A stretch of 31,035 nt of DNA, from positions 1-31,035 of IMG/VR virus record IMGVR_UViG_3300030329_000948. The stretch is one strand, 5' to 3'. Within the stretch, counting starts at the first letter, position 1; each line of letters starts with the position of its first letter. The notes under the pieces are model-generated. The model saw only the letters and a list, made by a program, of their open reading frames with translations, ran no database searches and was not told the DNA's origin. Shown piece after piece: positions 4,901-20,435 of this stretch. Made by a program: the position numbers and the translations under genes. Source of the stretch: a virus.

Positions 4901-6439
4901 CTATCCGCAATGTAATGTGCATGGAACGCAGTACGAACCATCATCATGTGTTATAACTTTTTCTGTTGATGTTACTTTACCTATTGTGCTTGCTCGTAAA
5001 ATATCATCTGCTTGTTTCTTTCCTGTGCCATCTCCTTTACTCTGTATGTAATCGCCAATGGCAACTGTTTCATCTTTATGTATTCTAATCATGTAAGTTC
5101 CAAGTGAAGCAATACTTGCATCGTTTTGCCAGTTTTTACCATCATCATCATCATCCCATCTGTGAAAAACTCCGTATATAGCTTTACTATCTTCCGTATC
5201 AGATATTTTAAATTTAGGTAAAGTTATATTAGTTTCTTTTTCAATTACGCCAGAAAAAGATTTATCTCCGTGAGTTATTGTAACTGTATCACCCACACTT
5301 TTATCAGATGGTAACTCATATTCTTCGTAGTGATATCTTTCTGATTCATCACTGTCGTGTTGATTTACATCAAATTTAACAGTGTACCATGTACACATTT
5401 CAGCAATGCTTTCTACAACTGTGCCTCTTAATATTGTTGGTTTTGAATTATCTGCAAGTTGTGACCAGTGAGCTCCCATAAATGTATTATATGAAACTGT
5501 GCTTCCAGAAACAGAAATTGTTCCTTCTGCCGTGCCTCCTTGTCTTAAATCTACTAAATTACCATCGTTAGTGTTTCTATTTATTTCAAATGGTGTTCCA
5601 CTCGCTTTAGAAACTTGCATCTTGTGAGTGTTGATAAGAACTTGGTCATACGCTGAACCTTCACTGTCTGTGTCTGAACCAAAAAGAATAACATCAGTAT
5701 CTGAATTTAAATTTATTTGATGAGTAACATTATCTGATTCAACTCTAAAATCTATGTTAGAAGCACCATCTTGATTAAAAACAGTTCCACTACCAGAATC
5801 TATTTGTATATGATTTGCAGGAGAACTTGCACTGTCAGACAGTATAATTTGGTCTCCTTGTATTTTTAAACTTCCAGAACCTGGTGTGTGGTCTATGACA
5901 GTGCTTGTTCCGTCAAAAAATAATTCTGTATCATTACCAGTTCCAAGTCTTACTTTTACACTGTCATTAACGTCTAATCCAGTATCACCACCAACACTTC
6001 CAATGTAAGTTTTAAGTCTAGAAGCGGCAGTTTTTCTTAATGTACCTCCCGCACCATCATCAACAAGAAATAAATCTGCATCTGCTATGTTAGCTCCAAT
6101 GTCTGTGTGTCCTGTTAGTAAAGCAGTGTTAAGTTTGTCTGCTGTTACAGATGTATCAGAAGGTGTAACTGTGCCACCAACTGCACCAGATATTTCTACA
6201 ATAAATATAGAAGCACCACTTGCGGGTGCTGTGCTAAATGTAATTGATGCACCACCACTAGCTAAAGTATAGTCAGTGCCGGGTAACTGTATAACACCAT
6301 CATGAGATACTAAAAGCTGTGCCGCAGAACCAACTTGTGTGCCTAAACTGAATGTAACATTAGAGCCATTATAAGTATTACCTGATGTATCTAGTACCTT
6401 AAACGTGCCTTGCTTAATTCCTTGTCCTATATATGCCAC
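4901..6439 (-). CDS. Tail fibre/spike protein with probable C-terminal maturation domain
   Basis: This 512-aa protein shows three parts. Residues 1-100 are a beta domain (GTDYTLASGGASITFSTAP) shared with the 328-aa fibre. Residues 109-147 hold the repeated linker module (ADADLFLVDDGAGGTLRK). After a shaft (DGASNIDFRVESDN, 225-240), the last 170 residues contain YGVFHRWDDDDDGKNW, SLGTYMIRIHKDETVAIGDY and a Cys-rich end, CVPCTLHCG. This C-terminal pattern recalls the G2/intramolecular-chaperone domains of phage spikes, which fold the trimer and may be cleaved off. That is a memory-based comparison, not proven. It is probably receptor binding. Confidence 0.8.
   Translation of the reverse strand: MAYIGQGIKQGTFKVLDTSGNTYNGSNVTFSLGTQVGSAAQLLVSHDGVIQLPGTDYTLASGGASITFSTAPASGASIFIVEISGAVGGTVTPSDTSVTADKLNTALLTGHTDIGANIADADLFLVDDGAGGTLRKTAASRLKTYIGSVGGDTGLDVNDSVKVRLGTGNDTELFFDGTSTVIDHTPGSGSLKIQGDQIILSDSASSPANHIQIDSGSGTVFNQDGASNIDFRVESDNVTHQINLNSDTDVILFGSDTDSEGSAYDQVLINTHKMQVSKASGTPFEINRNTNDGNLVDLRQGGTAEGTISVSGSTVSYNTFMGAHWSQLADNSKPTILRGTVVESIAEMCTWYTVKFDVNQHDSDESERYHYEEYELPSDKSVGDTVTITHGDKSFSGVIEKETNITLPKFKISDTEDSKAIYGVFHRWDDDDDGKNWQNDASIASLGTYMIRIHKDETVAIGDYIQSKGDGTGKKQADDILRASTIGKVTSTEKVITHDDGSYCVPCTLHCG
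5999..6115 (-). repeat. Fibre linker module, copy in 512-aa protein
   Basis: Residues 109-147 of the 512-aa fibre contain TDIGANIADADLFLVDD followed by GAGGTLRKTAASRLKTY. The same sequence recurs almost unchanged in the 328-aa fibre and, more diverged, in the 431-aa protein. It joins an N-terminal beta domain to the rest of the fibre. Confidence 0.8.
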
Positions 6440-8187: not shown

Positions 8188-8514
8188 TTACTCCTTTGGA
8201 TTGTCATCTTTAATTTTTTTAATACGAGCCTTCCAAGCGTCTATGTCCTTGTATATCTCATCGAGCTGTTCACCGATATCACCATAAGCCTCTTTACGAG
8301 TAGCACGAACACCTACATTGTTATATTCTTTAGTGGCGTTTGTAGCTAGTGCATTTAATTGACTGTCTGTTGGTTTTGACACGCCAGATACATTCCAAGT
8401 TTTTATATAATCACCAGAGCCATCATTTTGCAATGCAATGTTAGAATTAAATTCAGATTCTGTTTTACTATTAGCTTCTAAATATAATTTTACTTTATAA
8501 TATAAATTATCCAT
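8188..8514 (-). CDS. Small fibre-cluster protein, chaperone-like candidate
   Basis: This 108-aa protein is mainly helical. The C-terminal segment RKEAYGDIGEQLDEIYKDID followed by WKARIKKIKDD matches a motif often seen at the ends of small tail fibre assembly or XkdW-like proteins (R-x-x-AY-x-x-IGxQLD). The N-terminal part (YYKVKLYLEANSKTESEF) is unrecognised. Its ATG follows the 328-aa fibre gene with a one-base TAATG overlap, so the two are likely translated together. A role as chaperone or adaptor for the 328-aa fibre is the simplest inference. Confidence 0.6.
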   Translation of the reverse strand: MDNLYYKVKLYLEANSKTESEFNSNIALQNDGSGDYIKTWNVSGVSKPTDSQLNALATNATKEYNNVGVRATRKEAYGDIGEQLDEIYKDIDAWKARIKKIKDDNPKE

Positions 8515-9500
8515 TATGACTCCATACCTGTTAGTCTAAATCCTTCAAATCTTGTATAATCATCATTTGAGTCGGTTGTTCTACTTTGTCCGTAATTATG
8601 ATAAACATATGCTTCAAAGTAATCATCTGAATCAGCAGTTACTATACCACTACAACTAACCACTGAAGCTATTTCAATATTACCTCCTGCAACATGACGT
8701 TCAGCTATTTCTTTTGTGCCGTTTTTATAAATTGCAACATCCATATATTCGCTTTGAGCATTTGCATAATACATTAAAACGCTAGCCTTAAGAAAGTATT
8801 TTCCCGGAACAACGGGAGTAAATTTGTGAGAAGCAAAAGTTCCGTCTGAATCAAAGACCTCAGTTGCCCACTCAAGTTTTGTATCCGTGTTGTGGTTTAT
8901 GGTTTGAGCTCCACTTTGTTTTACGCTAAAAGCAGGTGTATTTGATATATGTTTTATATCTAATCTTTTTAAAGTTCCTGCATCGGATAAAACTATTTCA
9001 TCTGTTGCGGCAGGCTGTGCCGCTAATTCTGTAGCACCTGTAATACTTGTTACATCAAATCCGCCAACATAAGTTTTAATTCTAGATGCCGCAGTTTTTC
9101 TAAGTGTTCCACCTGCTCCATCATCTACTAAAAATAAATCAGCGTCAGCTATTGCTCCACCGATATCAGTTTGACCTGTTAATACAGAAGAGGCAAGACT
9201 GCCCGCCTGCACTCCACTAGCAGGAACATCAATAGTTCCTACACTCTTTGCTTGATGAACAACATAAATATTGTTTGTGCCGCTAGGAGGTGCACCAGTA
9301 AACGTTAATGTTGTACCAGATAAAGTGTATGCTGAGTTAGGATCTTGTCTTACATTACCAACAAATACTTCGATGTCTAATACTGAAGAAGGTGCTACAT
9401 CTAAAGTAAATGCAGTTGTGCTTCCATCACCATTAAACCTCTTACCTACAAGAGATTGAAAAGTATTTTGGGTATCTATAGGATTACCTACATATGCCAT
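8514..9500 (-). CDS. Tail fibre protein with linker module and C1q-like tip
   Basis: This 328-aa protein has residues 1-95 as a beta domain (FNGDGSTTAFTLDVAP, YTLSGTTLTFTGAPPSG) shared with the 512-aa protein. Residues 108-147 are the repeated module ADADLFLVDDGAGGTLRK, and 152-186 a second diverged module (TDEIVLSDAGTLKRL). From about residue 190 a C1q/TNF-like jelly roll follows (QTINHNTDTKLEWATEVFDS, FTPVVPGKYFLKASVLMYY). Domain order implies attachment base, linker, trimeric tip. Its start lies one base after the 115-aa gene. It is probably host recognition. Confidence 0.8.
   Translation of the reverse strand: MAYVGNPIDTQNTFQSLVGKRFNGDGSTTAFTLDVAPSSVLDIEVFVGNVRQDPNSAYTLSGTTLTFTGAPPSGTNNIYVVHQAKSVGTIDVPASGVQAGSLASSVLTGQTDIGGAIADADLFLVDDGAGGTLRKTAASRIKTYVGGFDVTSITGATELAAQPAATDEIVLSDAGTLKRLDIKHISNTPAFSVKQSGAQTINHNTDTKLEWATEVFDSDGTFASHKFTPVVPGKYFLKASVLMYYANAQSEYMDVAIYKNGTKEIAERHVAGGNIEIASVVSCSGIVTADSDDYFEAYVYHNYGQSRTTDSNDDYTRFEGFRLTGMES
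8943..9047 (-). repeat. Fibre linker module, second diverged copy in 328-aa protein
   Basis: Residues 152-186 of the 328-aa fibre read SITGATELAAQPAATDEIV followed by LSDAGTLKRLDIKHI. It follows the complete module in the same protein, so the fibre has a tandem pair. Confidence 0.65.
9060..9179 (-). repeat. Fibre linker module, copy in 328-aa protein
   Basis: Residues 108-147 of the 328-aa fibre contain TDIGGAIADADLFLVDD followed by GAGGTLRKTAASRIKTY. They match the module in the 512-aa fibre except at a few positions (GQ for GH, GAI for ANI, I for L), despite many silent base differences. Confidence 0.8.
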
Positions 9501-9868: not shown

Positions 9869-11164
9869 CTAACCAAGCGCAATTGCAAGGGCAGTGGGAT
9901 CTTCTGTCGAGAACCCTGCACTTGTTAAATATGTTTTAAGTCTTGTTAATGTAGCTTTTCTATTAGTGCCACCTGCACCGTCGTCTACGATTATTAAATC
10001 TGCGTCTGCTAAAGCAGCACCAATATCAGTTCCGCCGTCAATATCTAATGTAGCTAATCCAACAGAGTTACTTGAAGCTGTTATTGTTTTGTTTGTAAAA
10101 GTTTGTGTTGCAGCAAGACCAGCAATTGTATCTGTTGTTGCCGGTAAAGTTAATGTTGTGTTACCAGAAAAATCAGAGTGTGCTGGTGCTTGTAATTGAG
10201 CATAGTGTGCGTTTGAAGATTCACAGTATAGTCTTAGCACTGATTGTGATCCTGTGTTTTTTAAATCTATAACACCACCTTCTACAGTAAGATCGTCTCC
10301 TACACTTACATCACCAGTTACTGTAACTGAATCTACATAAGCATCTTTAAATCTTACAGAGTTAGTTCCTAAATCTACATCACTGTCAGTTTGTGGACCT
10401 AATACACCATCTGATACAAATACTTGCTCTGCGTTTGCAGCATAAAAATGTATTTCATCTGCTGTTTCAAAATCTATTTTTGTTTGATCATCTTCACCAA
10501 TCTTAACATCAGTTGCTAATATTGATGTAATTCCTGTTTGTGCAGCATCTACGCTTAATGTGTTAGTAGATAATGATACACCTGTCCCTGCTGAAAAAGC
10601 AGTCTTGGACATTGCTATAGCAGCAGAAGAATTTATATCTGCGTTTACAATTACACCAGATCCAATTGCTGCTGTTCCGTTTGCAGCTATGCTTATGTCA
10701 CCAGATATAGTAACAGGATTATAATTTGTGCCATCTCCAATAAGAGCTGCACCACTTGTGTTTGTGTTTAAAGTAATGTCATCGCCTGTAACAGTTAAAT
10801 CTCCGGTTACAGTTAAGTTACGTCCTATGGTTGCATCATTGTTTGCATCTTCAAATATTAATTTACTAGCTGGTATAGTACAGAATACATCTTTTGTTCC
10901 TGAACTAAAGTCAACAGCGCTGTCACTGTTGGAACTAGATATAACTGTTGTACGTGTAAGATCAGAACTATCACCGTCAAGTGTTCCCAACCCAACTTCA
11001 AACTCTGCTTGATCCTGGTGTGCAATACAATAATAAACTGTGTTGGAATTACCAATACCAGCAGCAAAAGTTTCAAAGCCAGTTACAGCACCCGCAAGAG
11101 ATACGGCACCCGTACCAGTTGTAGTGGTTGTTTCTTTTACTCTATCATTAATGACTAATGCCAT
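9869..11164 (-). CDS. Long tail fibre-like protein
   Basis: This 431-aa protein is rich in Thr, Ser, Gly, Asp and Ala. The N-terminal ~100 residues (MALVINDRVKETTTTTGTGA … AEFEVGLGTLDGDS) are a recognisable marine phage fibre head. The middle has collagen-free shaft repeats (NLTVTGDLTVTGDDITLNTN, DSVTVTGDVSVGDDLTVEGG). Residues 377-415 contain the linker module (ADADLIIVDDGAGGTNRK), which here stands almost at the C-terminus instead of before a tip domain. It may therefore form the shaft to which other fibres join. The role is inferred from sequence type and neighbours. Confidence 0.8.
   Translation of the reverse strand: MALVINDRVKETTTTTGTGAVSLAGAVTGFETFAAGIGNSNTVYYCIAHQDQAEFEVGLGTLDGDSSDLTRTTVISSSNSDSAVDFSSGTKDVFCTIPASKLIFEDANNDATIGRNLTVTGDLTVTGDDITLNTNTSGAALIGDGTNYNPVTISGDISIAANGTAAIGSGVIVNADINSSAAIAMSKTAFSAGTGVSLSTNTLSVDAAQTGITSILATDVKIGEDDQTKIDFETADEIHFYAANAEQVFVSDGVLGPQTDSDVDLGTNSVRFKDAYVDSVTVTGDVSVGDDLTVEGGVIDLKNTGSQSVLRLYCESSNAHYAQLQAPAHSDFSGNTTLTLPATTDTIAGLAATQTFTNKTITASSNSVGLATLDIDGGTDIGAALADADLIIVDDGAGGTNRKATLTRLKTYLTSAGFSTEDPTALAIALG
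9920..10036 (-). repeat. Fibre linker module, copy in 431-aa protein
   Basis: Residues 377-415 of the 431-aa fibre contain GGTDIGAALADADLIIVDD followed by GAGGTNRKATLTRLKTY. It lies 16 residues from the C-terminus, unlike the other copies, which are internal. Confidence 0.75.
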
Positions 11165-16043: not shown

Positions 16044-16646
16044 TTATGTTCCAGTGATACCTGTGCCTAATTTAACGTGTTCGTTAAACATAACGTACCA
16101 GTTAGCATTAGCACTTGAAGCATCATCGTTTTCTGGATCTTTCGTAATCCCAATGATTTTGACTTGTAAGCCAGCTGTAGTAGCTTCAGCGCTACTGTCT
16201 ATTTCATTTTTAGACAGACCGTTGACTGTGCTACCTGCAGTAAGAGCAGTATCAGTGTTCTTACCAATATCAGTTTTAGCTATTGTGCCATCACATTGAG
16301 CTTCAAAAAGCATGTACGGATCATCATAGATATACGCGTCAATATTAGTTGAACCAGAGATCGAACCTGCAGAGGTTACGTTTATGCTCCCTGGATAATA
16401 ATTTGAGTAAGTTGGCTTTTTGCTAGTTGGGTCAATGTAGAAACAACCATTGAATACACCAAGAATAGTTGCGCCTGAAGCAGTTCCTTTAATTACGTAA
16501 CCGCCAGACTGTAACACGTGATCTCCTTTAAAGATCGCTGTGCCGTAGTTATCCTCAATAGTGTACATAGTTGTACCCATGTTTTGAACACCACTACCGA
16601 CTTTGCCAATTGGTCTATACCCAAATGCTGCGTCAATATTAGCCAT
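16044..16646 (-). CDS. Capsid-adjacent structural protein
   Basis: This 200-aa protein starts MANIDAAFGYRPIGKVGSGV and contains TMYTIEDNYGTAIFKGDHVL. From memory this is a standard virion protein encoded just before the capsid gene in marine phages. The sequence is beta-rich with Gly/Ser/Thr turns (DPTSKKPTYSNYYPGSINV) and ends EHVKLGTGITGT. The frame opens 11 codons earlier at 16679, but ATG 16646 is preferred because TGAGGA sits the usual distance upstream. It leaves a 78-nt leader with a hairpin. A head decoration or cement protein is likely but unproved. Confidence 0.75.
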   Translation of the reverse strand: MANIDAAFGYRPIGKVGSGVQNMGTTMYTIEDNYGTAIFKGDHVLQSGGYVIKGTASGATILGVFNGCFYIDPTSKKPTYSNYYPGSINVTSAGSISGSTNIDAYIYDDPYMLFEAQCDGTIAKTDIGKNTDTALTAGSTVNGLSKNEIDSSAEATTAGLQVKIIGITKDPENDDASSANANWYVMFNEHVKLGTGITGT

Positions 16647-16672: not shown

Positions 16673-16695
16673 AACACACTCACCTTGAATGTGTT
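16673..16695 (-). promoter_or_regulatory. Imperfect hairpin in the leader of the 200-aa gene
   Basis: The transcribed strand reads AACACATT, CAAGGTG, AGTGTGTT. This can pair as an 8-bp stem with one G-U pair and a 7-base loop, about 25 bases before the ATG. No U-run follows. It may tune translation or mark an mRNA processing site. Structure support is modest. Confidence 0.35.
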
Positions 16696-16724: not shown

Positions 16725-17195
16725 TTAGTTTTTCTTACCGCCACCAAATGTTACGCGAGATCGCCTGCTTTCATTATGTACAGGCATGCTAGGATGTTGG
16801 TCCTTGAGTGGATCGTTTGCAACAGCATCATCTTTATCTTGCGTTACTTGCGCAAAATATTGTTTTCGCTGCTCAACAATTTCCTCAGGAATTCTTGCTA
16901 GCATCAAACCTCCAACAGCAATAACACCTTGATATCTACCTGATTCCACTTGTGGCCATTCCATGTCAGGATATTCATCTGCTCTCACAAATTCCCATCC
17001 TTCCCTTAGTCTAGCGGAAACATTTTTTGAATCCATCTGTCCTATTGTTTCGGCCCTAATCCAGCGGTGTTTAAAACCAGCTGGTGCAGGTGGTGCATCT
17101 AACTGTGATGGTGGAGCCCATTGTTTCCTTCGTTCGGTTTTAACTCGGGTTTCAGACTCGCGTGACGGTAGTTTAGTTTTTGTATTTGTATTCAT
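16725..17195 (-). CDS. Conserved-type head protein of unknown role
   Basis: This is a 156-aa hydrophilic protein. The core FKHRWIRAETIGQMDSKNVS, then RLREGWEFVRADEYPDMEWP and VIAVGGLMLARIPEEIVEQR, is, from memory, a widespread marine phage family always located between scaffold and capsid genes. The first 30 residues are basic and disordered-looking. The C-terminus (SRRSRVTFGGGKKN) is basic. GGAGTAGG precedes the ATG. A structural or capsid-assembly accessory role fits the position, but no biochemical activity can be read from the sequence. Confidence 0.75.
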   Translation of the reverse strand: MNTNTKTKLPSRESETRVKTERRKQWAPPSQLDAPPAPAGFKHRWIRAETIGQMDSKNVSARLREGWEFVRADEYPDMEWPQVESGRYQGVIAVGGLMLARIPEEIVEQRKQYFAQVTQDKDDAVANDPLKDQHPSMPVHNESRRSRVTFGGGKKN

Positions 17196-17199
17196 ATGC

Positions 17200-18150
17200 C
17201 TACTCCTTCACGTATTTCGCATATTCGCTTAGTGGCACACCTAATTTTTTTGCTATGGCTACCTGTGACGGTGTGAGTCTCACAGAACCTTTGCGCTTGG
17301 CTGGCTGCGTGCTTCTGGTTGCAGGAGCAACAGTTTGCGTAGGCGTAGAAACTTGTTCAAATTTATGAGGAAAAGTATCCCTCATTCTTTTGTCAATCTC
17401 ACTATAATACTCATCTGACTTCGTGTCAAATCCTTCTTCAACTAATTTTCTATGAATTGAAAAGGATGTGAGTGTCATAGGCTCATCTGTTCCAAACCAT
17501 TCGTTCTTCTCTGCCCAAGCTTCTGCTTTAGGATCAGGTGGAGCTGCTGGTTGTTGTTGAGCTGGTTGTTGAGCTTGTTGAGGCATTTGTGGTTGATTTG
17601 GATCAACTCCACGTGCCTCCATTTCTTTTTTCAATCTTTCACGTTGATCCAAGCTTTTCTTTGCTCTGTCAGCATCTACAGCCAAACGTGCTATTTTTTG
17701 CTGTGCCTCTACTTGTGCATCTATATCACCAGTATCCATAGCATCTTTTAGCTGTTTTTTAGCCTCTGCTGTTTGAGCTTCCACACGTGATGCAAATTCA
17801 TTCACATAACCTGTGTCAAGCAATTTTGCTCTTTGTTGCAGTTTAGTTTGCTCTGATTGTAACCCCTGGGCAAACTCTATTGCAGCTTGTTCTCTTCTTT
17901 CTGATTCTCGTAGTTTTTTAGTTAGTTTATCAATCCTTGATTGAACTTTTTTACCGTAGTCATCCATCTCTCCTTGAGATGCACTTTCTTCCACTACAAC
18001 TTCTTGTTCTTGTTGTGGTTGAGATACTACTTCCGTTTCTTTTGCCTCTGGTATTTCCACATCAACTGATGGACCATCAGATGGTAAATCAATCATTTTA
18101 GCGTCAGCTGATTCTTGTGTCTCTACTTTTGGCTGTGCGTCTGCAGGCAT
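17200..18150 (-). CDS. Probable head scaffolding protein
   Basis: This is a 316-aa protein. Residues 1-65 are acidic and Gln/Glu-rich. Residues about 65-180 form a long charged coiled coil (SRIDKLTKKLRESERREQAA and following). Residues 185-210 are a Gln/Pro linker (MPQQAQQPAQQQPAAPP). The basic C-terminus has RLTPSQVAIAKKLGVPLSEY, a motif I associate with scaffolds and capsid-assembly proteins of podoviruses, which would contact the capsid. AGGAGG lies just before ATG 18150. It probably drives procapsid assembly with the capsid protein and is later removed. The assignment rests on layout and composition. Confidence 0.75.
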   Translation of the reverse strand: MPADAQPKVETQESADAKMIDLPSDGPSVDVEIPEAKETEVVSQPQQEQEVVVEESASQGEMDDYGKKVQSRIDKLTKKLRESERREQAAIEFAQGLQSEQTKLQQRAKLLDTGYVNEFASRVEAQTAEAKKQLKDAMDTGDIDAQVEAQQKIARLAVDADRAKKSLDQRERLKKEMEARGVDPNQPQMPQQAQQPAQQQPAAPPDPKAEAWAEKNEWFGTDEPMTLTSFSIHRKLVEEGFDTKSDEYYSEIDKRMRDTFPHKFEQVSTPTQTVAPATRSTQPAKRKGSVRLTPSQVAIAKKLGVPLSEYAKYVKE

Positions 18151-18162
18151 TTATCCTCCTGT

Positions 18163-18666
18163 TTATCTAAATTGCAAGATATCCTCTGGGTCTTTTACCA
18201 CAGCGATTATCTCGTCCTCGTTAAGTATTCTCACTTCACCACCTTCTATCCCAAACCTAGATCCTGCATAACGACCAAATATAATCCAATCGTTAATTTT
18301 ACACCAAGGTCCGTTCGGATACCTTTCTTTGTCTGTATAACATTCTGGTCCCATTTTAAGAACCAATCCTGTGACCGTTGTGTAGCCACGTTCTTCCATT
18401 GTTTGATCAGCTAATATTACACCACCTTTTGTTTTACCTTGTCCTTTGTATGGCAAAACTAACAAACGCCAACCAGTTGGTTCTGGTAAACGTTCTAATA
18501 CTTTTTCTGTTGGTAAGTGTTCTATATCTTTTGTAGCATCTTCTTGTATTTTTTTAAGAAATTTATTTTCTTTTTCTTCTGCTACTTTGTTGTTTTCGTC
18601 AGCCTCTACTGACAAATCTTTTTCTTCTAACGCAAATCTACGTTTCGGTAGTTCCTTGTCTGTCAT
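18163..18666 (-). CDS. GroES-like co-chaperonin
   Basis: This is a 167-aa protein whose last 105 residues match the Cpn10/GroES family: PTGWRLLVLPYKGQGKTKGG, VILADQ, VLKMGPECYTDKERYPNGP, WCKINDWIIFGRYAG and EVRILNEDEIIAVV. The KTKGGVIL segment corresponds to the mobile loop that binds GroEL. The 60-residue N-terminal charged extension (KELPKRRFALEEKDLSVEAD) is absent from bacterial GroES. ATG 18666 is chosen because GAGGA precedes it at normal spacing; another ATG lies at 18678. It overlaps the 70-aa gene. It probably acts in the host cytoplasm with host GroEL to fold capsid protein, as T4 gp31 does. Confidence 0.85.
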   Translation of the reverse strand: MTDKELPKRRFALEEKDLSVEADENNKVAEEKENKFLKKIQEDATKDIEHLPTEKVLERLPEPTGWRLLVLPYKGQGKTKGGVILADQTMEERGYTTVTGLVLKMGPECYTDKERYPNGPWCKINDWIIFGRYAGSRFGIEGGEVRILNEDEIIAVVKDPEDILQFR

Positions 18667-18850
18667 CGTTTTCCTCATCTTTCTGCAGGTCTTGAATCTC
18701 CTGTTCCATTATTGCATAGGCTTTGTATTCGCCTACGGTTTTATTATATTCATCCCAGCTAGGTAATCCAGCTGCTATGACTTCTTTCAACTCTTCCTTG
18801 CGCGTTCTAATCCTTTTCAAGATTATGTAGATCGCAGTCTCATCTCTCAT
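18638..18850 (-). CDS. Small helical hypothetical protein
   Basis: This is a 70-aa, highly charged, helical protein: YIILKRIRTRKEELKEVIAA, then GLPSWDEYNKTVGEYKAY and a Glu/Gln helix. Similar short proteins (helix, G-x-P-S-x-x-EY, second helix) occur in marine phages between small genes and head genes, but no function is known to me. No clear SD precedes ATG 18850; the upstream bases are AT-rich (AGTATATAGACTATTTTA). Its end overlaps the co-chaperonin gene by 29 bases, so translation of the two is linked. Confidence 0.65.
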   Translation of the reverse strand: MRDETAIYIILKRIRTRKEELKEVIAAGLPSWDEYNKTVGEYKAYAIMEQEIQDLQKDEENDDRQGTTET

Positions 18851-18866
18851 TAAAATAGTCTATATA

Positions 18867-19145
18867 CTAACAGTTCCATTTACGCAAAGCTTTATTTATT
18901 CTAGAGTTAGGATCTCTAGCTGTCTTTGCACTTGTTCTTCTCTTCTTCATACCCTCCATTCTTGCACAAAAAGATTTACGTCTTTTTGCAGCTTTGGAAC
19001 CTTTCTTTAACTTTGATGGTTTTGTTGTAACAGCCATCTTAAGTTTAGAACCTGGGTTTGCAGCACGATATGATGCAACTCCTTTTCTATTTAACCCACC
19101 AGATTTACTCTTACCTTCTTTTCGTTGCCAAGCTGGTGTTGCCAT
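18867..19145 (-). CDS. Small basic protein, DUF6321-type candidate
   Basis: This is a 92-aa, strongly basic protein. It starts MATPAWQRKEGKSKSGGLNR and carries KAAKRRKSFCARMEGMKKRR and INKALRKWNC. The A-W-x-R-x-EGK-x-x-GGLN start with the RRKSFCARM-x-GM block is, from memory, a widespread phage/virus small-protein family of unknown function (I recall it as DUF6321). Its ATG overlaps the TAA of the 37-aa gene. Nucleic-acid binding is suggested by charge only. The two Cys residues could be functional or structural. Confidence 0.75.
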   Translation of the reverse strand: MATPAWQRKEGKSKSGGLNRKGVASYRAANPGSKLKMAVTTKPSKLKKGSKAAKRRKSFCARMEGMKKRRTSAKTARDPNSRINKALRKWNC

Positions 19146-19258
19146 TACTTTTTCTTTATAATTTTACTTAAAGTTTTAGCTTGTCCTGCGTGAGCTTTAG
19201 ATGCTTTTTTTAAAGCTGATACAACTTTTTTTACTTTTTTTACTTTGGTCTTTTTCAT
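19145..19258 (-). CDS. 37-aa lysine-rich protein
   Basis: This gene was found by reading between two called genes. The product begins MKKTKVKKVKKVVSALKKAS and ends SKIIKKK, with 15 Lys among 37 residues and no acidic residue. Helical periodicity of Val, Leu, Ala and Ile suggests a basic amphipathic helix. Its ATG overlaps the upstream TGA (ATGA), and its TAA overlaps the next ATG. The two exact overlaps and a good frame argue strongly that it is real. Function is unknown; binding of DNA, RNA or membranes is possible. Confidence 0.75.
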   Translation of the reverse strand: MKKTKVKKVKKVVSALKKASKAHAGQAKTLSKIIKKK

Positions 19259-19626
19259 TTTATTTTAAAACTAGGAAATTCTTTAATTCTACCCGCATAA
19301 TAACTTCTATAACTAGGATTAGATAGTTTTACACCATCATAAGATCCAGATATGTTTGGTCCAATATAACCACCAGCAGCTTTCTTTATTGTCGCTACAT
19401 TCGATGGTTTTGGTCCAGTGTTAGAAGCTTGTTGTTTTCTTTTTACAGCAGATGCTTTTTGACCTTTGCTCATGGCTCTAGCTTTTGCTATTGGCACACA
19501 TTTAGGATAGTTTTTTCTTTTTTCACCACCAGATCTACCACATTTAGGATATGATCCATCTGGTTTCTTATTGGCTATATCTACCCAATTTTCTTGTACC
19601 CAAGATCTAAGGCCCTTTTTTGCCAT
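19255..19626 (-). CDS. Small basic protein with paired cysteines, DUF5872-like candidate
   Basis: This is a 123-aa protein starting MAKKGLRSWVQENWVDIANK, followed by a Cys-containing block (GSYPKCGRSGGEKRKNYPKC, then VPIAKARAMSKGQKASAVKR). This architecture (LR-W-x-E-x-WVDI, K-C-GR, YPKCVP-AKA) is a common marine phage and giant-virus small-protein family that I remember as DUF5872-like. Function is unknown. The C-terminal third has Gly, Tyr and Ser and includes AAGGYIGPNISGSYDG. It overlaps the previous gene by 20 bases and the next by four. Nucleic-acid or metal binding is speculative. Confidence 0.75.
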   Translation of the reverse strand: MAKKGLRSWVQENWVDIANKKPDGSYPKCGRSGGEKRKNYPKCVPIAKARAMSKGQKASAVKRKQQASNTGPKPSNVATIKKAAGGYIGPNISGSYDGVKLSNPSYRSYYAGRIKEFPSFKIK

Positions 19627-19894
19627 GTTTACTCCTTATACTTTCCTTGCCTTTTTTAAAAATACTGGCAACTTGTGTTTTACCCATAACTTTAGCTCTT
19701 TGTTCGCCTACGGTCAATATTTGAATTTTACGAGCAAACGGTTTACTGGATCTTTTAACTTTTGCAACAGTAGCTCTTGCATCACTAGGAGTTGCAAATT
19801 TAATTGATACAGTGTCTTTAGGATTTTCATCCGTGTAGAGACGTCTACCACTACCCTTAGGTTTTTTTCCTGTTCCAACTCTAGGATCAGCCAC
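19607..19894 (-). CDS. Small basic phage protein (GTG start)
   Basis: This is a 95-aa basic protein. It begins VADPRVGTGKKPKGSGRRLY (read as Met at GTG), then TDENPKDTVSIKFATPSDAR, and ends with a Lys-rich tail. The DPRVGTGKKPKGSGRRLYTDENP block is very characteristic of small unnamed proteins in marine phages. A helix follows (RATVAKVKRSSKPFARKIQI). The GTG shares its G with the upstream TAG stop (TAGTG), implying coupled translation without its own strong SD. Function is unknown; charge suggests contact with nucleic acid. Confidence 0.75.
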   Translation of the reverse strand: MADPRVGTGKKPKGSGRRLYTDENPKDTVSIKFATPSDARATVAKVKRSSKPFARKIQILTVGEQRAKVMGKTQVASIFKKGKESIRSKHGKKGP

Positions 19895-20187
19895 TAAGTA
19901 AATAGTTTTGTTTGTTTTCTTTTACTAGGATCAACAGCACCACAACCAGCTGCAACTATACTAGCACTACCACCATTTCCAAAATTTACTTTTCTTTGAC
20001 CAGAAACCTTTTTTCTAGATTGTGATATGCCATTGCTATTGTAACCACCAGCAGCTTTTTTCTTTTTACCACCAGGTGTTACTTTGCCAGAACATACAGC
20101 ACTAGCGTACATGTTAGCATATGCACTTGGATATACTTTAAATTTACGTTTTGCTGCTGCTTTACCTTTAGGACATAGTTTACCCAT
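19894..20187 (-). CDS. Small basic protein with CPKGKAAAKRKFKVYP motif
   Basis: This is a 97-aa protein. MGKLCPKGKAAAKRKFKVYP followed by SAYANMYASAVCSGKV is a well-known conserved pattern in marine phages and some large DNA viruses, function unknown. Two Cys flank a basic helix, and a third (CGAVDPSKRKQ) lies near the C-terminus. The rest is Gly/Ser/Asn-rich (AAGGYNSNGISQSRKKVSGQ). It shares a theme with the 123-aa protein: Cys, KRK, YP, then Ala-rich helix. The ATG overlaps the TAA of the 82-aa gene. Confidence 0.75.
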   Translation of the reverse strand: MGKLCPKGKAAAKRKFKVYPSAYANMYASAVCSGKVTPGGKKKKAAGGYNSNGISQSRKKVSGQRKVNFGNGGSASIVAAGCGAVDPSKRKQTKLFT

Positions 20188-20435
20188 TATTTTCTCTTTA
20201 TGCCTCCTCTTCTCATTTTCTGAGCTTTTAATTTTTGAGCTGCTGCTCTTAGGCCACCCTTCATGTAACCCATCATTTTATCATCTTTCATCATGCCACC
20301 ACCCATTTTTTTGATAGCGCCACCTTTTTTCTTAGCAACAACCTTGCCACCTTTTTTCTTGTAACCCATTTTGTTTCTAACTTTAGTAGGTAGTTTAGCT
20401 AAACCTGGATTTTTTTTCTTGTCTACTTCTTTCAT
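20187..20435 (-). CDS. Lysine/glycine/methionine-rich small protein
   Basis: This is an 82-aa low-complexity protein with 29 Lys/Arg. It has LPTKVRNKMGYKKKGGKVVA, a core seen in many marine phage small proteins, then KKGG and MMxGYMKGG stretches. No cysteines and almost no acidic residues outside the first five and a DD in the middle. GGGGAAA lies before ATG 20435. This is the first gene of the basic cassette. A histone-like or packaging-associated role is only a hypothesis. Confidence 0.7.
   Translation of the reverse strand: MKEVDKKKNPGLAKLPTKVRNKMGYKKKGGKVVAKKKGGAIKKMGGGMMKDDKMMGYMKGGLRAAAQKLKAQKMRRGGIKRK

Follow-up and report, generated by a model that had tools for sequence, protein, structure and literature searches.

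A diverged phage co-chaperonin with a conserved N-terminal motif in the head module of a virus related to HTVC023P-type pelagiphages

Results

The co-chaperonin gene and its neighbors

We describe here a locus in the virus record IMGVR_UViG_3300030329_000948, the whole 31,035 bases of which were analyzed (the window), where a gene for a GroES-like co-chaperonin is followed on the minus strand by genes of a head module. The gene encodes a product of 167 residues (19.2 kDa), of which residues 60–167 form the Cpn10/GroES core. The features are as follows.

18673..18676, minus strand: GAGG, a Shine-Dalgarno-like site for the 18666 start, kept in nearly all relatives
18163..18666, minus strand: phage co-chaperonin GroES (Cpn10), 167 aa, from Pfam Cpn10, PHROG 3188 and a GroES structure match
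18490..18666, minus strand: N-terminal extension, residues 1–59, from the alignment, the AlphaFold2 model and dN/dS
18613..18648, minus strand: conserved short motif PKRRFALEEKDL, residues 7–18, a clade variant of Lxx[KA][YWD], from dN/dS and motif counts
18412..18435, minus strand: GroEL-binding mobile-loop motif KTKGGVIL, residues 78–85, from the GroES loop pattern in relatives
18370..18411, minus strand: segment between the mobile-loop triad and the next strand, 14 residues, from alignment with host GroES
18166..18195, minus strand: phage-specific C-terminal tail KDPEDILQFR, conserved in the relatives' alignment
17200..18150, minus strand: 316-aa coiled-coil-like protein, probable scaffold (PHROG 28737, unknown function), the next downstream gene in 306/306 testable contigs
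16725..17195, minus strand: 156-aa head-module protein (PHROG 36003), in 255/255 testable contigs
16044..16646, minus strand: 200-aa head-module protein (PHROG 37556), in 227/227 testable contigs; the longest ORF, from the GTG at 16679, is 211 aa
15119..16024, minus strand: major capsid protein, 301 aa, 33.5 kDa (Pfam Phage_capsid_4, PHROG 371), in 160/160 testable contigs

We place the start of the GroES gene at the ATG at 18666 (the protein begins MTDKELPKRR) because this ATG, with the GAGG site 7–10 nt ahead of it, is conserved in nearly all relatives, whereas the ATG at 18678 that would open a longer ORF is not; in many relatives it is ACG, AAG or deleted, and that start was dropped. Upstream, a 70-aa ORF (18638–18850, minus strand) runs 29 bases into the start of the GroES gene. 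HTVC027P (gp54) and 023Pt_psg01 have a small gene that overlaps in a similar way, and the overlap appears to be kept across the group.

A Cpn10 core distant from bacterial GroES

The core matches Pfam Cpn10 (PF00166) with 38.1 bits (E=1.5e-9), above the cut-off of 21.1, and PHROG 3188, 'co-chaperonin GroES', with 68.4 bits (E=7e-19). It does not reach the level of the NCBIfam bacterial GroES equivalog (PRK00364 group), for which the best score is 40.1 bits against a cut-off of 96, and the phage protein is thus strongly diverged from bacterial GroES. A single-chain AlphaFold2 model built on a 105-sequence alignment has pLDDT values mostly of 84–95 in the core, and the predicted structure has the GroES beta-barrel fold, matching solved GroES chains with a Foldseek E of 5.8e-7 and a VIA Z of 10.2 over 92 residues. 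The same core matches T4 gp31 with a Foldseek E of 0.012 and a VIA Z of 7.8–8.4, so that GroES chains rank ahead of gp31; a profile search of the PDB found GroES chains at E 1.9e-11, and gp31 was missing from it at E<=1. The initial annotation, made from the sequence alone, had proposed a GroES-like co-chaperonin at 18163–18666 with a KTKGGVIL mobile loop, and family, structure and start-codon evidence agree with it.

All 268 distinct relatives tested have the GroES loop pattern, and the hydrophobic triad of the loop varies, with Tyr, Ala or His sometimes at its middle position. Between this triad and the next strand there are 14 residues in each of the 195 phage relatives measured, compared with 10 in host GroES. 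The roof segment has 14–15 residues in most measured relatives, near the length in host GroES as read from the alignment only, the hairpin being unresolved in the model. At the C-terminus, proteins of the inner clade share a conserved tail of the form xxPEDIL, which SAR11 host GroES lacks. The protein is a variant Cpn10 by virtue of its N-terminal tail with the motif (below), its longer loop segment and its C-terminal tail, and the motif, the four added residues and the conserved PEDIL go beyond what had been noticed earlier.

The N-terminal extension carries a strongly constrained motif

The extension, previously put at 60 residues, is present and is lacking in bacterial (host SAR11) GroES, but the alignment sets its length at 59 residues, with the core starting at LPEPTGWR. 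Charged residues make up 51% of it, with a net charge of −4. In the AlphaFold2 model residues 18–45 form a helix of moderate confidence (pLDDT blocks of 68–76), and the N-terminus ahead of it, which carries the motif, is predicted with low confidence and is read as flexible. No known fold was reported for the extension as part of this model, which does not amount to evidence of a new one.

The initial annotation had called for a search for matching extensions in relatives, and these were found. In the inner clade they are 25–66 residues long (one 3-residue reading is an exception of start prediction), and among outer relatives the extension is short in Pag-Yong1 (16) and CRP-901 (about 25) and missing from the 113-aa protein of an Alcaligenes phage. 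A universal extension was therefore rejected, and it seems dispensable for the basic function of the protein because outer relatives have little or none of it. This Alcaligenes phage relative (vB_Af_QDWS535, L452:2848–3189) also has a long, altered mobile loop without the GG-hydrophobic motif, and its binding to GroEL may be different or absent.

The sequence and length of the linker vary among relatives and its charged character stays. Across the 75 distinct genes of the window's clade, with regions begun past the first ten codons, which overlap the upstream ORF, dN/dS is 0.026 for FALEEKDL, 0.142 for the linker and 0.122 for the core; the extension is thus under purifying selection in this clade, strongest at the motif. 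Conservation of the motif within sets selected by a regular expression is partly circular, and it was recounted without such selection, which gave Lxx[KA][YWFD] in 232 of 269 distinct relatives, and against composition-preserving shuffles, where a related pattern occurs in 77 of 107 less redundant extensions compared with 10.4 expected and a maximum of 19. The window has FALEEKD; other clades have ALLDKY or ALADKY, TALERKW with a second LDDAY, SFDKAY, or GLLNAY, and a few have LVGV or LNF in place of Lxx[KA][YWD]. Recombination or swapping of tail types was considered and rejected, since tail type agrees for the most part with position in the core tree (18 changes, compared with 79 when shuffled).

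Linkage to the head module

The capsid protein (Pfam Phage_capsid_4, E=1.6e-12; PHROG 371, major head protein) is encoded 2.1 kb downstream of GroES, and its 301-aa product confirms one part of the earlier description, that the gene adjoins scaffold and capsid genes. For the other part, the 316-aa protein is probably the scaffold, as judged from its position, its coiled-coil-like composition and a conserved C-terminal segment, LTxSQVAIAKKLGVPLEEYAK. The order GroES–316 aa–156 aa–211 aa–capsid is kept in 160/160 testable contigs, which were themselves selected by GroES. When contigs were instead selected by the capsid protein, the GroES gene lay 2.4–2.7 kb upstream of the capsid gene in all 33 that had enough upstream sequence to be counted. 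The contigs in these linkage counts are not independent, many being close relatives.

Deposited phage records with this capsid family all have a Cpn10 gene (19/19; 16 by tblastn and 3 by Pfam search), and their recorded hosts include Pelagibacter, Roseobacter, Caulobacter, Alcaligenes, Planktothrix and a methanogen group. One of them, vir526, had been taken as a natural control without GroES, and was dropped when a search of the whole record found Cpn10 near the terminase, raising the count from 18/19. The vir526 gene (BK063670.1:42883–43134) is away from the head module and its usual place near the scaffold; the recorded host is Methanomicrobiales, and no group I chaperonins of Methanomicrobiales turned up in a literature search.

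Phage group, hosts and GroEL

By capsid protein, HTVC023P-type pelagiphages and phage DSL-LC04 come closest among deposited phages, at 73–77% identity. The virus is a marine phage, allied to those infecting the abundant bacterium Pelagibacter, and HTVC023P-type and related phages have been described as widespread in the ocean. The presence of the GroES gene and its general role in this phage group are already known, co-chaperonin GroES having been listed as one of 13 core genes in HTVC023P-type phages (PMC9599517); it is marked as well in CRP-901/902, which are related roseophages (PMC10149686). Some Pelagibacteraceae single-cell genomes have contigs that carry relatives of the phage GroES, and three of these genomes hold groES adjoining groEL, the groES product having 96–97 aa and no extension. 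GroEL was found neither in the window nor in five of five complete relatives, in line with the earlier reading, in which the co-chaperonin was seen and GroEL was not. Since the complete relatives do not encode GroEL and the hosts have groES–groEL, we propose that the phage lid uses host GroEL.

Discussion

We conclude, with a probability of about 0.78, that the gene encodes a true Cpn10, acting as a phage lid for host GroEL that is used in the folding of head proteins. Its nearest named counterparts are the GroES proteins of HTVC023P-type pelagiphages (HTVC027P gp55, QGZ17836.1; HTVC023P gp36, QGZ17665.1; and 023Pt_psg01), which belong to the same family, occupy the same place in the head module and have an N-terminal extension. 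The HTVC027P protein aligns over 98% of the window's protein with 44.6% identity. However, extensions of this type are shorter (about 38–48 aa) than the 59 residues here, and the motif is ALADKY in HTVC027P, compared with FALEEKD, whereas HTVC023P is without a clear Lxx[KA][YWD]. The best structural match in BFVD is A0A221S4I5 (155 aa, 46% identity), one of the 'Co-chaperonin GroES [uncultured virus]' records (A0A221S...); those that we examined give no function for the extension. These virioplankton co-chaperonins may be the ones surveyed by Marine et al. (2017, ISME J), whose work on chaperonins of the virioplankton is cited in PMC5934643 and PMC7185714. With bacterial GroES/Cpn10 (PF00166) the protein shares the core fold, the mobile loop and the length of the roof segment, although the bacterial proteins have no N-terminal extension and no PEDIL tail, and their mobile-loop segment is four residues shorter.

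The comparison with T4 gp31, which the initial annotation gave as the precedent, holds for function but not for close relationship, identity being about 10–12% in structural alignments with no comparable N-terminal tail of gp31 aligned. Like gp31 and RB49 CocO, the protein would be a phage-encoded GroEL lid of the same fold class with a mobile loop longer than that of GroES, although the gp31 loop has 22 residues compared with 16 in GroES, six extra (PMC6318259), and here there are four extra. Of the features that mark the gp31 family, this lengthened loop is the one that is shared; gp31 is without roof loops (PMC6318259), whereas the window's protein keeps a roof segment of host length, and its core is closer to GroES than to gp31. 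The enlarged cage of gp31 is explained by its client gp23 of ~56 kDa (PMC6318259), but the capsid protein here, at 33.5 kDa, would fit the ordinary GroEL–GroES chamber, so a private lid is not needed for reasons of size. A gp31-like expanded cage was rejected, the longer loop agreeing with it and the roof and capsid size disagreeing, and the tailoring of chamber size suggested earlier is not obviously needed.

There are other ways in which the extension could act on the cage. Seven charged 7-kDa tails could line it and, without any specific partner, alter its charge and volume to suit phage clients. Cage changes have a precedent in T4 gp31 (PMC6318259), and the 51% charged composition with a net −4 on each tail, together with a charged character that outlasts changes in linker length and sequence, is consistent with such a role. 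A mere brush, however, would not need one short motif to be far more constrained than the rest. The seven tails also amount to ~49 kDa, or roughly 59,000 cubic angstroms by our own estimate (1.21 per Da), and if placed inside would take up ~30% of the 194,000 cubic angstrom cage (PMC6318259), shrinking rather than enlarging it; simple enlargement is the less likely for a capsid protein of only 33.5 kDa, and we regard a partner-free role of the tails as unlikely. An alternative that we take seriously without favoring it is that the lid outcompetes host GroES during infection and serves the folding of many phage proteins without being tied to the capsid in particular, its position in the head operon setting only the timing. 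The GroES-like mobile loop and the Alcaligenes relative without any extension are in accord with this general role, as is the ability of gp31 and CocO to stand in for GroES in functions essential to E. coli (PMC3012670), but it leaves unexplained why 19/19 records of the capsid lineage keep Cpn10, almost always in the same head-module place. It is very improbable that the protein has given up GroEL binding and that its GroES fold now serves in the virion or in assembly. The gene does sit in the head operon, its product scores well under the bacterial GroES equivalog cut-offs and the GG-hydrophobic loop motif is gone from the Alcaligenes relative, although every relative of the window's clade retains that motif, which would be unexpected if GroEL binding had been lost.

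In the reading that we prefer, in which the phage protein is a GroEL lid serving head-protein folding, seven copies would form a heptameric dome, by analogy with GroES and gp31, and this lid would dock on host GroEL through the KTKGGVIL mobile loop and either replace or compete with host GroES during infection. The clients folded by GroEL would then be head proteins of the phage, the likeliest being the capsid protein, whose gene is a few genes downstream, although the linkage covers the whole head module (portal, scaffold and capsid) and so does not single out the capsid as the client. Docking elements usually take the form of a short, strongly constrained motif borne on a linker that is charged and variable, and we infer from these sequence patterns that the N-terminal motif may dock a phage partner, either the capsid protein or the probable scaffold. 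The tail is thus probably a tether for a head-assembly partner, holding it to the seven-fold lid, and with such tethering head assembly would be coupled to release from GroEL. The fullest version of this proposal, with the motif displayed seven times around the lid, capturing the capsid or scaffold partner and passing folded capsid protein from GroEL to prohead assembly, is speculative and has the odds against it. We know of no Cpn10 with a client-recruiting function of this kind.

The capsid lineage appears always to be accompanied by a GroES of its own, and why a small capsid protein should have a private chaperonin lid becomes a testable question outside T4, with the conserved tail motif as one short target for deletion or mutation.

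Two further features of the window are noted. Between the portal side and GroES there are five small, strongly basic ORFs (82–123 aa; 18867–20435, minus strand), possibly DNA- or RNA-binding, of which a 92-aa ORF matches DUF6321. In the tail region, three genes on the minus strand (4901–6439, 8514–9500 and 9869–11164) have in common a ~30-residue cassette, TDIGxxIADADLFLVDDGAGGTLRKTAASRLKTY, and look as if they were tail-fiber genes built from one module.
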